Shown: in pieces, positions 5,672 through 55,755 of the stretch
Layout: every line of letters begins with the position of its first letter
Numbering within the stretch: the stretch's first letter is position 1
DNA from: Mycolicibacterium lutetiense
Lineage (GTDB): Bacteria; Actinomycetota; Actinomycetes; Mycobacteriales; Mycobacteriaceae
DNA length: 64,000 bases
Direction: 5' to 3'
NCBI RefSeq assembly: GCF_017876775.1
Contig: NZ_JAGIOP010000001.1
Coordinates: 558,001 to 622,000, forward strand
Notes under the pieces: generated by a model
What the model was told of the DNA's origin: nothing
Seen by the model: only the letters and a program-made list of their open reading frames with translations
Database searches by the model: none
Made by a program: the position numbers and the translations under genes

Positions 5672-5933
5672 TCTCCTTGGCCATCTGGACGTCTTTCTCG
5701 GTGATGCCGCCGGCGGCATGCGTCACCAGGGCGAACGTGACTGTGCGCCAACGGATGTCGATGTCGGGATGATGGTCTTTCTGCTCGGCGAATTCAGCCA
5801 CGCGGCGCACCGCGTCGATTCCGTCGAGGAACGTCGGGAATTTGGTGGATCGGCGCAGGGCGCCCGCCGCACGTTCCCAGCCGGGCAGATCGGGCAGTGC
5901 GGCGTCGACTTGATCGTTCGATAACACGGCCAT
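5640..5933 (-). CDS. phhB: Pterin-4a-carbinolamine dehydratase
   Basis: A 97-residue cytosolic protein with the family hallmark [11 protein letters not shown] followed by [17 protein letters not shown]; the His-His-Pro motif provides the active-site residues. The enzyme dehydrates 4a-hydroxytetrahydropterin and can act as a dimerisation cofactor; its role in mycobacteria is unclear because a pterin-dependent hydroxylase partner is not evident here. It corresponds to Rv1159A. The ATG at 5933 lies four bases from a 20-bp palindrome shared with the divergent mutT2 gene. Confidence 0.92.
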
Positions 5934-5936
5934 ATA

Positions 5937-5956
5937 CCCGACGGTATACCGTCGGG
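5937..5956. promoter_or_regulatory. Perfect 20-bp palindrome in the phhB/mutT2 divergent promoter
   Basis: CCCGACGGTATACCGTCGGG is identical on both strands and fills most of the 27 bases between two divergent start codons. The central TATACC occurs on each strand as a possible -10 about ten bases from each start. The arrangement suggests either a symmetric divergent promoter or an operator for a dimeric regulator controlling both genes. Confidence 0.7.
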
Positions 5957-51374: not shown

Positions 51375-52781
51375 GTGTTGCTGGCCTCCCTGAACCCCGC
51401 GGCCGTCGCCGCCGGCGCCGAACTCGACGACGCCGTTTCCATCGACGGTGCCGTTCTGAGCCGCAGTGATCTCGTCGGCGCCGCCACCTCGGTGGCAGAA
51501 CGGGTGGCCGTGGCGCAACGCGTCGCCGTCCTGGCGACCCCGACCCCGACGACCGTCCTTGCGATCATCGGGTGCCTGATCGCCGGCGTGCCGGTGGTCC
51601 CGGTACCCGCCGATGTCGGCACGGCGGAGCGGCGGCACATCCTCGCGGACTCCGGCGCGCAGGCCTGGCTGGGGGAGCGGCCCGAGGAGACCGAGGGGTT
51701 GCCGCACATCCCGGTGCGGCTGCACGCCCGGTCCTGGCACCGCTATCAAGAGCCGGCACCGAATTCGACCGCGATCATCATGTACACCTCCGGCACCACC
51801 GGAGCGCCCAAGGGCGTGCCGATCAGCCGGCAGGCCATCGCCGACGACATCGACGCGCTGGCCGCGGCGTGGCAGTGGACTGCCGCCGACACCCTGGTGC
51901 ACGGGCTGCCCTTGTTCCACGTGCACGGCCTGGTGCTGGGCCTGCTCGGCTCGCTGCGGATCGGAAACCGATTCGTACACACCGGAACACCGACACCGGA
52001 CGCATACGCGCAGGCACAGGGCACGCTGTACTTCGGGGTGCCCACCGTGTGGTCGCGCGTGGTCAAGGATCTGGACTCGGCGCTGGCGCTGTCCACCGCG
52101 CGGCTGCTGGTCTCCGGCAGCGCACCACTGCCGGTGCCGGTGTTCGACGAGTTGGTCCGGCTGACCGGGCATGCCCCGGTGGAGCGCTACGGCAGCACCG
52201 AATCGCTGATCACCCTTTCCACCCGGGTCGACGGCGAGCGCAGGCCCGGCTGGGTCGGGCTGCCGCTGGCCGGGGTGCAGACGAGGCTCGTCGACGACGA
52301 CGGCGCACCGGTGCCGCACGACGGCGAGACCATCGGGCGGCTACAGATCAAGGGCCCCATGGTGTTCGGCGGCTACCTCAATCGGCCCGAGGCGACCGCT
52401 GACGCCTTCGATCCCGACGGCTGGTACCGCACCGGCGACGTCGCGGTGATCGACGCCGACGGGATGCACCGCATCGTCGGGCGCGAGTCGGTGGACCTGA
52501 TCAAGTCCGGCGGATACCGCATCGGCGCCGGTGAGATCGAGACCGCGCTGCTGGGTCACGACGGGGTGGACGAGGTGGCGGTGGTCGGGGTGCCCGACGA
52601 GGATCTCGGGCAGCGCATCGTCGCGTTCGTTGTCGGCAATGCCGCCCCGGATGCTCTCATCGAATTTGTCGCCCAACAACTTTCAGCACACAAACGGCCC
52701 CGCGAAGTCCGGTTGGTAGACAGCCTGCCCCGCAACGCCATGGGCAAGGTGATGAAAAAGGAACTGGCCCAATGGGACTGA
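51375..52781 (+). CDS. fadD36: Acyl-CoA synthetase FadD36
   Basis: A 468-residue adenylate-forming enzyme. The P-loop MYTSGTTGAPKGVPISRQ, YGSTES, the hinge YRTGDVAVIDADGMHRIVGR and the end PRNAMGKVMKKEL with the catalytic Lys are all intact. It activates a carboxylic acid with ATP and CoA. The length fits Rv1193 (473 residues). The last ten bases overlap the following VOC gene. Confidence 0.92.
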   Translation: MLLASLNPAAVAAGAELDDAVSIDGAVLSRSDLVGAATSVAERVAVAQRVAVLATPTPTTVLAIIGCLIAGVPVVPVPADVGTAERRHILADSGAQAWLGERPEETEGLPHIPVRLHARSWHRYQEPAPNSTAIIMYTSGTTGAPKGVPISRQAIADDIDALAAAWQWTAADTLVHGLPLFHVHGLVLGLLGSLRIGNRFVHTGTPTPDAYAQAQGTLYFGVPTVWSRVVKDLDSALALSTARLLVSGSAPLPVPVFDELVRLTGHAPVERYGSTESLITLSTRVDGERRPGWVGLPLAGVQTRLVDDDGAPVPHDGETIGRLQIKGPMVFGGYLNRPEATADAFDPDGWYRTGDVAVIDADGMHRIVGRESVDLIKSGGYRIGAGEIETALLGHDGVDEVAVVGVPDEDLGQRIVAFVVGNAAPDALIEFVAQQLSAHKRPREVRLVDSLPRNAMGKVMKKELAQWD

Positions 52782-53267: not shown

Positions 53268-53522
53268 GTGAATCTGAAGAAAATCACGGGAACGGCAATC
53301 ATCGCCGCTGCGCTCGGTGCTGGATCCCTGGGACTGGGAGCAGCGTCAGCGCAGGCTGATCCTGGTCACGGCCCCAATATTCCGTGGATTCCCGGACCGG
53401 GATGGGTCGATGGGAATCCAGGACCCAATTGGGGAGCTCCTGGCCAGGTCAAGAAATGGTGCCCGTGGCAGTCCCCGCCAGGCCACTGGATCGGTGGCCC
53501 ACACGGGGTGCCCTGCACCTGA
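53268..53522 (+). CDS. Small secreted Gly/Pro/Trp-rich protein
   Basis: An 84-residue exported protein with a signal peptide (residues 1-31, AQA-DPG). The mature 53 residues are rich in Gly, Pro and Trp (PWIPGPGWVDGNPGPNWG) with two Cys (KKWCPWQ and PCT at the end) that can form a disulfide. GTG has a strong AGGGAGGAG site upstream. Proteins of this make-up are common in mycobacteria and of unknown role. A short inverted repeat TCTGCCG/CGGCAGA lies upstream (53170-53191). Confidence 0.8.
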   Translation: MNLKKITGTAIIAAALGAGSLGLGAASAQADPGHGPNIPWIPGPGWVDGNPGPNWGAPGQVKKWCPWQSPPGHWIGGPHGVPCT

Positions 53523-53531
53523 GGTCAGTGG

Positions 53532-53633
53532 TTACTCAGAACCGCACTTGCAGTCAGAACCGCACTGGCAGTTCTCGCACTTACAGTTCGGATTGCCACA
53601 GCTCGTGGATTGAGTGTTCGTATCGTTACCCAT
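53532..53633 (-). CDS. Metallothionein-like 33-residue Cys-rich protein
   Basis: A short gene encoding 33 residues, with seven Cys in the last 22: Cys12, 17, 19, 22, 24, 28 and 30. The core NPNCKCENCQCGSDCKCGSE is built from C-x-C and C-x2-C units and has no aromatic residue or His, the composition of a metallothionein. It would bind Cu(I), Zn or Cd in a thiolate cluster in the cytosol. It is not similar to MymT of M. tuberculosis beyond Cys content. The ATG at 53633 lies seven bases after a TAGCCT -10 element, so the mRNA is probably leaderless. It lies between a secreted-protein gene and dapD. Confidence 0.8.
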   Translation of the reverse strand: MGNDTNTQSTSCGNPNCKCENCQCGSDCKCGSE

Positions 53634-53640
53634 GCATATG

Positions 53641-53657
53641 AGGCTAGCCCCGGGTAG
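53641..53657 (-). promoter_or_regulatory. Promoter of the metallothionein-like gene with GC-rich partial palindrome
   Basis: The -10 element TAGCCT occupies 53646-53641. It overlaps CTACCCGGGGCTAG (minus strand, 53657-53644), an imperfect palindrome. Copper repressors such as CsoR and RicR bind GC-rich palindromes over promoters, so this is a possible metal-responsive operator. Confidence 0.4.
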
Positions 53658-53711: not shown

Positions 53712-54656
53712 CTAGTTGGCGTGCAGCGCCTCGTTGAGCGTGATGCCGGTGCCGTCACGCTTGACCACCTCGACCGCGCCCGACAGTGAGTTGCGGCGGA
53801 ACAGCAGGTTGTTGGCCCCGGACAGTTCGATGGCCTTGATGGTCTGCCCGTCCCCGGTGGCCACCTTGGTGCCGCCGGTGACATAGAGCCCGGCCTCGAT
53901 CACGCAGTCATCGCCCAGCGAGATACCCAGACCCGAGTTGGCGCCCAGCAGGCAGCGCCTACCCACCGAGATCACCTCTTTGCCGCCACCGGACAGCGTG
54001 CCCATGATCGATGCGCCGCCACCCACATCGGAGCCGTCGTCCACCACGACACCGGCCGAGATCCGGCCCTCGACCATCGAGGTACCCAGCGTGCCGGCGT
54101 TGAAGTTCACAAAACCCTCGTGCATGACCGTCGTCCCCGAGGCCAGGTGCGCGCCCAGACGGACCCGGTCGGCGTCGGCGATGCGCACACCCGACGGCAG
54201 CACATAGTCGACCATCCGGGGGAACTTGTCGACGCCGTAGACCGCGACGGCCCCACGCCGGCGCAACCGCGCCCGCACCGTCTCGAAGCCCTCGACCGCG
54301 CACGGTCCGAAGCTCGTCCACACCACATTGGCCAGCAGGCCGAAGATGCCGTCCATGTTGGCCTCGTGCGGCTTGGTCAGCCGGTGCGAGAGCAGGTGCA
54401 GCCGAAGGTAGGCGTCATGCGCGTCGGCCGGTTTGTCGTCCAGCGACGCGATCGTGGTGCGCACCGCCACCACCTCGACACCGCGATCGGCATCGGGGCC
54501 GGTCAGGCCGGTGAAATCGGCGGGCACCTCGTCACCCGTGAGCCTCACGGTCCCGGCGGCGCCCGAGGCGCTCAGCTCGGGGGCGGGAAACCAGGTGTCC
54601 AGGACGGTTCCGTCGGCGGTGATGGTGGCCAGGCCGACGCCAGATGCTGCAGTCAC
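53712..54656 (-). CDS. dapD: Tetrahydrodipicolinate N-succinyltransferase
   Basis: A 314-residue hexapeptide-repeat (left-handed beta-helix) enzyme that transfers succinyl from succinyl-CoA to tetrahydrodipicolinate, the first step of the succinylase branch to meso-DAP and lysine. Repeats appear as [20 protein letters not shown] and [23 protein letters not shown] at 54656 gives the normal length of about 317. It is divergent from dapE with 34 bases between. Corresponds to Rv1201c. Confidence 0.95.
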
Positions 54657-54690
54657 GTTGGCCAAGGCTACTGGACTAGCCTCGGAGCCT

Positions 54691-55755
54691 ATGGGGCTAG
54701 ACCTGCGTGCCGACCCGATCGAGCTGACCGCCGCGCTGGTGGACATCCCCAGCGAGTCGCGCCACGAAAAGCTCATCGCCGACGAGATCGAAGTCGCGCT
54801 GCGCACGCAGGCGCCGTGGTTCGAGGTGGTTCGCAACGGCGACGCGGTGCTGGCCCGCACCAACCTGGGCCGCCCGTCGCGGGTGATGCTGGCCGGGCAC
54901 ATCGACACCGTGCCCGCTGCCGACAACCTGCCCAGCCACATCAAAAACGGCGAGATGTGGGGCTGCGGCACCTCGGACATGAAGGCCGGTGACGCGGTGT
55001 TCCTGCACCTGGCCGCCACGATCGCCGAGCCCCGCCACGACATCACCTTGGTGATGTACGACTGCGAGGAGATCGAGTCCAGCGCCAACGGGCTCGGCCG
55101 CATCGAACGTGAGCTGCCGGACTGGCTGCAGGCCGACGTCGCGATCCTCGGCGAACCTTCCGGTGGCTACATCGAGGCGGGCTGCCAGGGCACCATCCGT
55201 GTCGTCGTCGGCGCCACCGGCACCCGCGCCCACTCAGCCCGATCGTGGCTGGGCGACAACGCAGTTCACAAACTCGGCGCTGTCCTGGACCGGCTCACCA
55301 AGTATCAGCCCCGCAACGTCGACATCGACGGCTGCGTATACCGGGAAGGGCTGTCGGCGGTCCGTATCGACGGTGGCATCGCCGGCAACGTCATCCCCGA
55401 TTCCGCATCGGTGACCGTCAACTTCCGATTCGCCCCCGACCGCAGCGTCGAGCAGGCCGTCGCCCACGTGCATGAGGTGTTCGACGGGCTCGACGTCACC
55501 ATCGACCTGACCGATGCCGCCGCCGGTGCCCTGCCCGGGCTGGCCAAACCCGCCGCGGCGGCGCTGGTGGATGCCGCCGGAGGGCAGGTTCGCGCCAAGT
55601 ACGGGTGGACAGACGTGTCGCGGTTCGCGGCGCTGGGGATTCCCGCAGTCAACTACGGGCCCGGTGACCCCAACCTCGCGCACAAGGTCGACGAACGGGT
55701 CGACGTCGCCGCGATCACCGCCACCACCGACATGCTGCGGCGCTACCTGACGTGA
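54691..55755 (+). CDS. dapE: Succinyl-diaminopimelate desuccinylase
   Basis: A 354-residue M20 zinc hydrolase that releases L,L-diaminopimelate. The metal site is in [13 protein letters not shown] and [12 protein letters not shown], with the catalytic Glu pair in CEEIES and a later His near the end (NLAHKVDE). The length equals that of Rv1202. The ATG has GGAG upstream. Its stop overlaps the S4 gene (GTGA). Confidence 0.95.

Follow-up and report, generated by a model that had tools for sequence, protein, structure and literature searches.

A candidate leaderless mini-metallothionein gene in Mycolicibacterium lutetiense and its family of very short Cys-rich relatives

The window analysed here, a stretch of 64,000 nucleotides from Mycolicibacterium lutetiense (contig NZ_JAGIOP010000001.1, positions 558,001 to 622,000), carries on its minus strand, at 53532–53633, a small open reading frame (ORF) of 102 nt that starts with ATG, ends with TAA and encodes 33 amino acids. 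This ORF is a real, conserved gene under purifying selection, and we consider it likely, with a probability of about 0.72, that its product is a cytoplasmic mini-metallothionein, most likely holding a Cu(I) cluster and made from a leaderless message. In the mechanism that we propose, the seven thiolates of a 19-residue core would wrap a small metal cluster, most likely of the Cu(I)-thiolate type, and the cluster would buffer or sequester excess metal. The gene would have its own promoter, its message would begin at or beside the A of the ATG, and translation would proceed without a Shine-Dalgarno (SD) sequence. The computed evidence comprises the ORF itself, purifying selection, invariant Cys residues, a conserved spacing between the −10 hexamer and the start codon, and copper-linked boxes or neighbours at some of the relatives.

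A conserved Cys-rich ORF

The peptide encoded by the small ORF is MGNDTNTQSTSCGNPNCKCENCQCGSDCKCGSE. Its seven Cys, at residues 12, 17, 19, 22, 24, 28 and 30, are spaced as C-x4-C-x-C-x2-C-x-C-x3-C-x-C over the 19-residue core, and it contains no Phe, Trp, Tyr or His (mass 3.4 kDa, isoelectric point 4.5). The initial annotation had described the same frame (33 codons, seven Cys in C-x-C and C-x2-C units, no aromatic residues). The composition is that of the metallothionein class, with very small size, Cys at 7 of 33 residues, C-x-C motifs and no aromatics. Across the six frames of the window this exact spacing is present once, and 40 random windows generated with a first-order Markov model contain it 0 times. 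The looser measure of seven Cys within 21 residues is less special (2 stretches in the window, versus a random mean of 0.125), and the other such stretch lies out of frame inside a FadD-like ORF near 51600.

A search with the single sequence gave 39 places at E ≤ 1e-3, in 35 of 297 sampled genomes of the genus; at E ≤ 1 the same search hit 176 of the 297 genomes, and these hits are mostly noise. It had been proposed that stops, shifts or lost Cys in related species would speak against the gene, and all 39 places proved to be open, with no internal stop in any of them and all seven Cys retained in every one. The start codon is ATG in 37 places and GTG in one (L035; loci are designated by L numbers), and one place (L025) has no nearby start codon. 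This last copy (L025:1441–1620) has seven Cys and an open frame, but the usual position of the start codon is empty. A profile search matched 49 of 294 genus genomes at E ≤ 0.001, and 6 of 298 genomes of an order-level sample, namely the source genome, two others of the genus and three members of the family that belong to different genera; the genus and order counts are not independent, as the sequences behind the profile came from these genomes. The pooled ratio of nonsynonymous to synonymous change (pN/pS) was 0.20 in the group of the window copy and 0.27 and 0.32 in two further groups. Conservation is not limited to Cys, as N14 is present in 52 of 52 aligned members, and P15, G25 and G31 in at least 90%. 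Family conservation and the invariant Cys thus support the earlier suggestion of a distinct, very small metallothionein, as far as sequence can indicate.

Predicted promoter and start of the message

The minus-strand letters ahead of the ORF read GGGGC-TAGCCT-CATATGC-ATG. The predicted −10 hexamer TAGCCT (53641–53646, minus strand) is read at 53646–53641, and 7 nt separate its end from the ATG, in agreement with the initial annotation. The intervening spacer CATATGC (53634–53640, minus strand) belongs to a conserved form with the consensus CAYATGC, and both elements lie within a conserved promoter core, GGGCTAGCCTCATATGC (53634–53650, minus strand), delimited by the column information content of 25 copies. 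The predicted transcription start is the A of the ATG at 53633 (minus strand), judged from the spacing to the −10 hexamer and from the lack of an SD-like motif within 18 nt of the start of the window gene (one loose pattern).

Among 44 non-redundant actinobacterial copies, 30 have a TANNNT hexamer that ends exactly 7 nt ahead of the ATG and 4 have one that ends 6 nt ahead of it, while shuffled upstream sequences place the hexamer at the 7-nt position in 0.28 copies on average and in 3 at most (1000 rounds). Under stricter redundancy limits the 7-nt spacing is found in 23 of 37 and 19 of 32 copies. By class, it is present in 22 of 24 copies with an ATGC spacer end, in 4 of the 5 that carry a CsoR-type box and in 4 of the remaining 15. 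The spacer matches CAYATGC in 17 of the 44 copies and ends in ATGC in 24, and Tsukamurella copies also carry a CAYATGC-type spacer. SD-like motifs, sought with the loose pattern used for the window gene, lie within 18 nt of the start in 8 of 44 actinobacterial copies versus 29 of 29 proteobacterial ones. Together these figures are strong sequence evidence that the single-unit actinobacterial branch has leaderless messages. The leaderless promoter proposed for the window gene is likewise supported by the persistence of the TANNNT-7 nt-ATG arrangement across copies whose DNA further upstream differs, and this set of copies would provide a natural series of putative leaderless promoters for studies of mycobacterial initiation.

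The 44 copies represent 96 actinobacterial ATG-start loci collapsed at upstream identity of at least 60%, a step that also merges places fetched twice. Left out of the 96 were L025, L035 and L055 (no usable nearby ATG), L002, L003 and L059–L062 (no Cys pattern), the window repeats L001 and L053, and the repeats L143–L150. For L028, L030, L048 and L126 the start was set at the next ATG upstream, in line with the relatives, and this choice biases the counts slightly toward the 7-nt spacing. The column statistics were computed on copies that end in ATGC or GTGCGC, a choice that partly determines the last spacer columns. In the subfamily of the window copy, the conserved block GGCnTAGnnTCATATGC followed by ATG spans −17 to the start codon, and conservation falls sharply upstream of it. 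No conserved −35 element was found in the columns computed to −30, and none is evident by eye further upstream.

Within its own genome, the only perfect match to GGNNTANNNTCATATGC is the promoter of the metallothionein gene. Genome searches with TANNNTCAYATGCATG, allowing up to 1 mismatch, returned this gene and one 1-mismatch match, versus 1 control match; those with GGNNTANNNTCATATGC returned six matches versus one control match. The six comprise the metallothionein gene, one place before the GTG of a TetR-type ORF and four places without a start codon right after them. At the TetR-type ORF (named by eye; L158:1501–1517, C1:345806–345822 of the genome), the GTG start is preceded by GGTCTAGCCTGATATGC, a near-identical block with spacing equal to that at the metallothionein gene. 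These searches revealed no regulon in the genome sharing the conserved promoter block, and because of this an operator role of CATATGC remains a guess; the block may simply be a recurrent form of leaderless promoter. It is a tentative and rather doubtful proposal that, in mycobacteria and their relatives, GGCnTAGnnTCATATGC followed by ATG combines a −10 hexamer, a metal-sensor operator and a leaderless start, as part of an unnamed mini-metallothionein family of units of about 30–37 residues and tandem doubles across Actinobacteria, Alphaproteobacteria and Bacteroidetes. If this were true, a single block of ∼20 bp would set both transcription and translation. Two ideas about the promoter were dropped: an SmtB/zinc operator for CATATGC, as no operator to compare was found in the literature searched, and a SigC promoter, as the SigC −10 (CGTSSS) does not fit the window sequence.

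Family spread and databases

Relatives in the scan of genome records (best 80 of 118) come from Mycolicibacterium, Mycobacteroides, Mycobacterium, Tsukamurella and Gordonia, and further ones (again among the best 80 of 118) from alphaproteobacterial and other proteobacterial metagenome-assembled genomes, Bacteroidetes and single others. Records were first selected by a motif of 9 residues taken from the centre of the Cys core, and then by tblastn similarity. Two features that this motif does not include, N-P-[ND] ahead of the second Cys and the final pair of Cys, are nonetheless common to nearly all relatives, so that homology is favoured over convergence, though not proven. Most of the distinct actinobacterial proteins are single units of 28–38 residues. 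Tandem doubles of 51–57 residues with 14 Cys occur at 11 loci in 11 genus genomes (L021, L035, L043–L046, L049, L050, L052, L055 and L057); each of these genomes is 1.9–4.5 Mb as listed, and several are incomplete. The exact Cys spacing of the window peptide is found in 68 of 72 distinct actinobacterial proteins and at 92 of 96 actinobacterial loci, figures biased toward conservation by the use of a looser seven-Cys pattern in choosing the set. An aromatic residue is present in 4 of the 72 proteins.

No curated Pfam or NCBIfam family covers this group of proteins. None of the 52 members matched any NCBIfam family at E ≤ 1, and 0 of 52 matched the PF02069 (SmtA/BmtA) model at that threshold. 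Two Pfam metallothionein models, PF12749 and PF02067, match one member each (E 0.11 and 0.22), and the match to PF12749 (eukaryotic metallothionein) reaches 12.9 bits, under the curated cut-off of 22 bits. The window peptide itself has no Pfam match over the cut-off, no match in NCBIfam and no PDB sequence match at E ≤ 10. A large protein search gave 38 proteins, most of them nameless or ‘hypothetical’, with two plant metallothioneins among them (E 1.4e-3 and 9e-3). Among the papers listed in searches of the open-licence literature, none describes the family in its title or in the start of its abstract. The expectation that gene callers miss so small a gene was borne out in part: a 37-residue relative from M. 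abscessus has been deposited as an ‘Uncharacterised protein’ (P0004), whereas a Tsukamurella record, with an incomplete gene table, lists no gene at its copy. This record (T. tyrosinosolvens, NZ_LR134461.1) has the relative at L166:4001–4066, in a stretch for which the record lists no gene, directly past mycothione reductase; the record is designated a plasmid, although its genes are ordered much as at other Tsukamurella loci. A 47%-identical relative is encoded at L167:3885–3992 in an unverified, unannotated phage contig from human faeces (MT836935.1).

Bacterial metallothioneins are described as rare in passages of PMC7558416. An uncurated, very short family present in about one in six sampled genus genomes, and in other phyla as well, suggests that they have been under-counted because of their small size.

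Boxes and neighbours that point to copper

The palindromic pattern TACCY-N-RGGTA, here called a CsoR-type box, lies over or next to the −10 hexamer in 5 of 44 actinobacterial copies (L027, L042, L051, L056 and L058; shuffle mean 0.04). It is found within 120 nt upstream in 10 of 29 proteobacterial copies (9 of 19 after collapse; shuffle mean 0.03) and in 0 of 9 Bacteroidetes copies; the patterns used for the proteobacterial copies and for the scans of the window and the source genome were looser than that used for the 44. The source genome contains three CsoR-family matches, with a box ∼60 bp upstream of L163 and ∼1.4 kb from L164, and no box within the 1.5 kb flanks of the third (L165). The part of PMC10141476 on the Mycobacterium tuberculosis CsoR site gives the same CCCC-N4-GGGG centre as in our box, with other ends. 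Relatives with and without the box would allow metal control to be compared inside one family.

As to the neighbours of the relatives, the L069 copy has a heavy-metal P-type ATPase, which contains an HMA domain, on one side and a Caa3_CtaG protein on the other. The ATPase scores 505 bits, versus the copper cut-off of 397 of TIGR01511, and a gene over the cut-off of a SigC model lies beyond it. L075, L082 and L099 resemble L069 by sequence, with one extra ORF between the ATPase and the small gene in L082 and L099. The L070 copy adjoins NicT, DUF1775 and CopC genes, L097 resembles L070, and NicO stands beside the L068 copy. According to passages of PMC7924339, ctpB of M. tuberculosis is raised by SigC, which has a part in copper nutrition. 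The neighbours of other copies are an IS110 transposase (L067), DNA ligase and a tRNA synthetase-type gene (L086), L,D-transpeptidase (L135), glucose/sorbosone dehydrogenase (L073), APP1 and SnoaL (L051), and mycothione reductase (L120), and no recognised gene flanks the L064 copy. The IS110-type transposase ORF of L067 (L067:133–1533) immediately precedes the metallothionein copy at 1599 and is a possible means of gene movement between loci.

From boxes, neighbours and composition together, copper is our best guess for the metal of the family; an all-Cys make-up free of His and aromatics resembles that of copper thioneins. Metal-free metallothionein peptides are expected to be disordered. The window peptide would bind metal, probably copper, its gene may be induced by metal, and by analogy it would act like its copper-linked relatives. 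For the window copy itself we infer copper from these relatives, because it has neither a box nor a metal neighbour of its own.

Elsewhere in the window, TATACCCGACGGTATA at 5933–5955 overlaps an 18-base perfect palindrome, CCGACGGTATACCGTCGG, which lies just before a NUDIX-like ORF (plus strand) and a divergent pterin-dehydratase-like ORF (minus strand; both named by eye). The arrangement suggests an operator.

Genomic setting of the small ORF

The upstream neighbour of the small ORF, on the same strand and 78 bp away, is dapD (tetrahydrodipicolinate N-succinyltransferase; 53712–54650, minus strand), which corresponds to residues 152–463 of the ORF at 53712–55103 (TIGR03535, E 3e-158). On the other side, a convergent ORF of 84 codons with a signal-peptide-like N-terminus, judged by eye (53268–53522, plus strand), has its stop codon 9 bp away from that of the small ORF. 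It is followed by a VOC-like and then a FadD-like ORF, both named by reading the sequence, without a family search. Comparison by tblastn indicated that dapD, the 84-residue ORF and FadD are retained around the L004 copy, and the VOC-like ORF is not; dapD is also retained upstream of the copies in L006 and L008, and in L064 ∼3.5 kb of other sequence intervenes. The 84-residue ORF adjoins the small gene in L004, L005, L007, L008, L063, L064 and L065, and was not found by tblastn in L006/L066 (L006/L066, L007/L064 and L008/L065 are identical places fetched twice).

Alternative explanations

Several observations weigh against a copper-binding metallothionein with a leaderless message. The closest pair, the window copy and L004, differs over 32 codons by 2 changes, both of them nonsynonymous, the presence of the gene in the genus is patchy (49 of 294 genomes by profile), and few of the doubled copies show the leaderless spacing (2 of 9). 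Near 53633 there is no CsoR/RicR-type box, the sole match in the window being at 5933, and no metal gene adjoins the window copy, its flanks being formed by dapD and the convergent ORF. A metal transporter is present among the scanned neighbours of 5 of 16 loci (L042, L068, L069, L070 and L091), a figure that covers the loci with at least one neighbour scanned and stands without a background rate. The L069 ATPase also exceeds the cadmium cut-off of TIGR01512 (380 versus 313.5), at a lower score than for copper; the NicO/NicT and CbiQ neighbours fit nickel or cobalt, and the mycothione reductase of the Tsukamurella loci would suit thiol stress. That the metallothionein serves Zn/Cd or Ni/Co instead of copper is conceivable, though we regard it as unlikely: NicO/NicT adjoin the L068, L070 and L091 copies, CbiQ and an ABC ATPase adjoin that in L042, and a zinc-ribbon protein that in L137, and the CsoR-type box is missing at 39 of 44 actinobacterial copies, that of the window among them. 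CsoR-type boxes and copper-type neighbours in several branches speak for copper instead. A zinc-finger fold uses His, of which the window peptide has none; such a fold is described for SmtA, a Zn-type bacterial metallothionein, in part of PMC7558416.

In Tsukamurella, the copies L120 and L166 immediately follow mycothione reductase in the same orientation, a position that would suit a role in thiol or redox buffering or in Cys storage and not in metal binding. We hold this to be highly improbable, since redox buffering does not need a fixed Cys spacing (92 of 96 actinobacterial loci, in the set picked with the looser pattern), and copper-linked boxes and neighbours are found at other copies. 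A still slimmer chance is given to the view that the leaderless Cys-rich ORF is a cis-acting, cysteine-responsive attenuator of a downstream operon, although it is leaderless by prediction, Cys-rich and mycobacterial, like the polycysteine small ORFs in the portions of PMC4633059 and PMC9094748 that deal with them. The next downstream ORF is convergent, on the opposite strand and 9 bp away, so there is no operon to attenuate; the peptide contains no run of adjacent Cys, the non-Cys residues N14, P15, G25 and G31 are conserved, the fold of the message is not unusual (z −0.97), and the family occupies many unrelated loci. On account of the convergent ORF and the lack of a special RNA fold, an attenuator role at the window gene was rejected.

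Comparison with known systems

Fungal copper metallothioneins with 7 Cys (Neurospora/Agaricus type) are about 25–35 residues long and have C-x-C units and no aromatics. The window peptide is similar to them in size, in its seven Cys and in the lack of aromatics, but the spacing of its Cys differs from theirs, and it is without a PDB match at the threshold given above. The polycysteine leaderless attenuators of mycobacteria, reportedly those of Canestrari et al. 2020, share with the window gene a leaderless start (assigned to the latter by sequence only), a high Cys content and very short length. However, the window gene has neither a same-strand downstream operon nor a polycysteine run, and its family conserves non-Cys residues and is spread over many loci. 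SmtA and BmtA, which we take to be represented by PF02069, are likewise bacterial, Cys-rich and involved in metal sequestration, but the 52 members have no match to PF02069 at E ≤ 1, and the window peptide is His-free and probably too short for the zinc-finger fold of SmtA.

MymT of M. tuberculosis (Rv0186A) is also a small Cys-rich mycobacterial protein whose ORF was first unannotated. Its binding of Cu(I) through thiolates is described in passages of PMC7558416 and PMC10470581, the former giving a mass of 4.9 kDa and the latter control by RicR. The window peptide is smaller, at 3.4 kDa, and whereas MymT is RicR-controlled, the window gene has no CsoR/RicR-type box, such boxes being present at 5 of 44 relatives. 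The initial annotation had called the peptide distinct from MymT, a distinction that we also make, by size and the missing box. MymT is the nearest known protein in kind, from which the small ORF is set apart by size and control.
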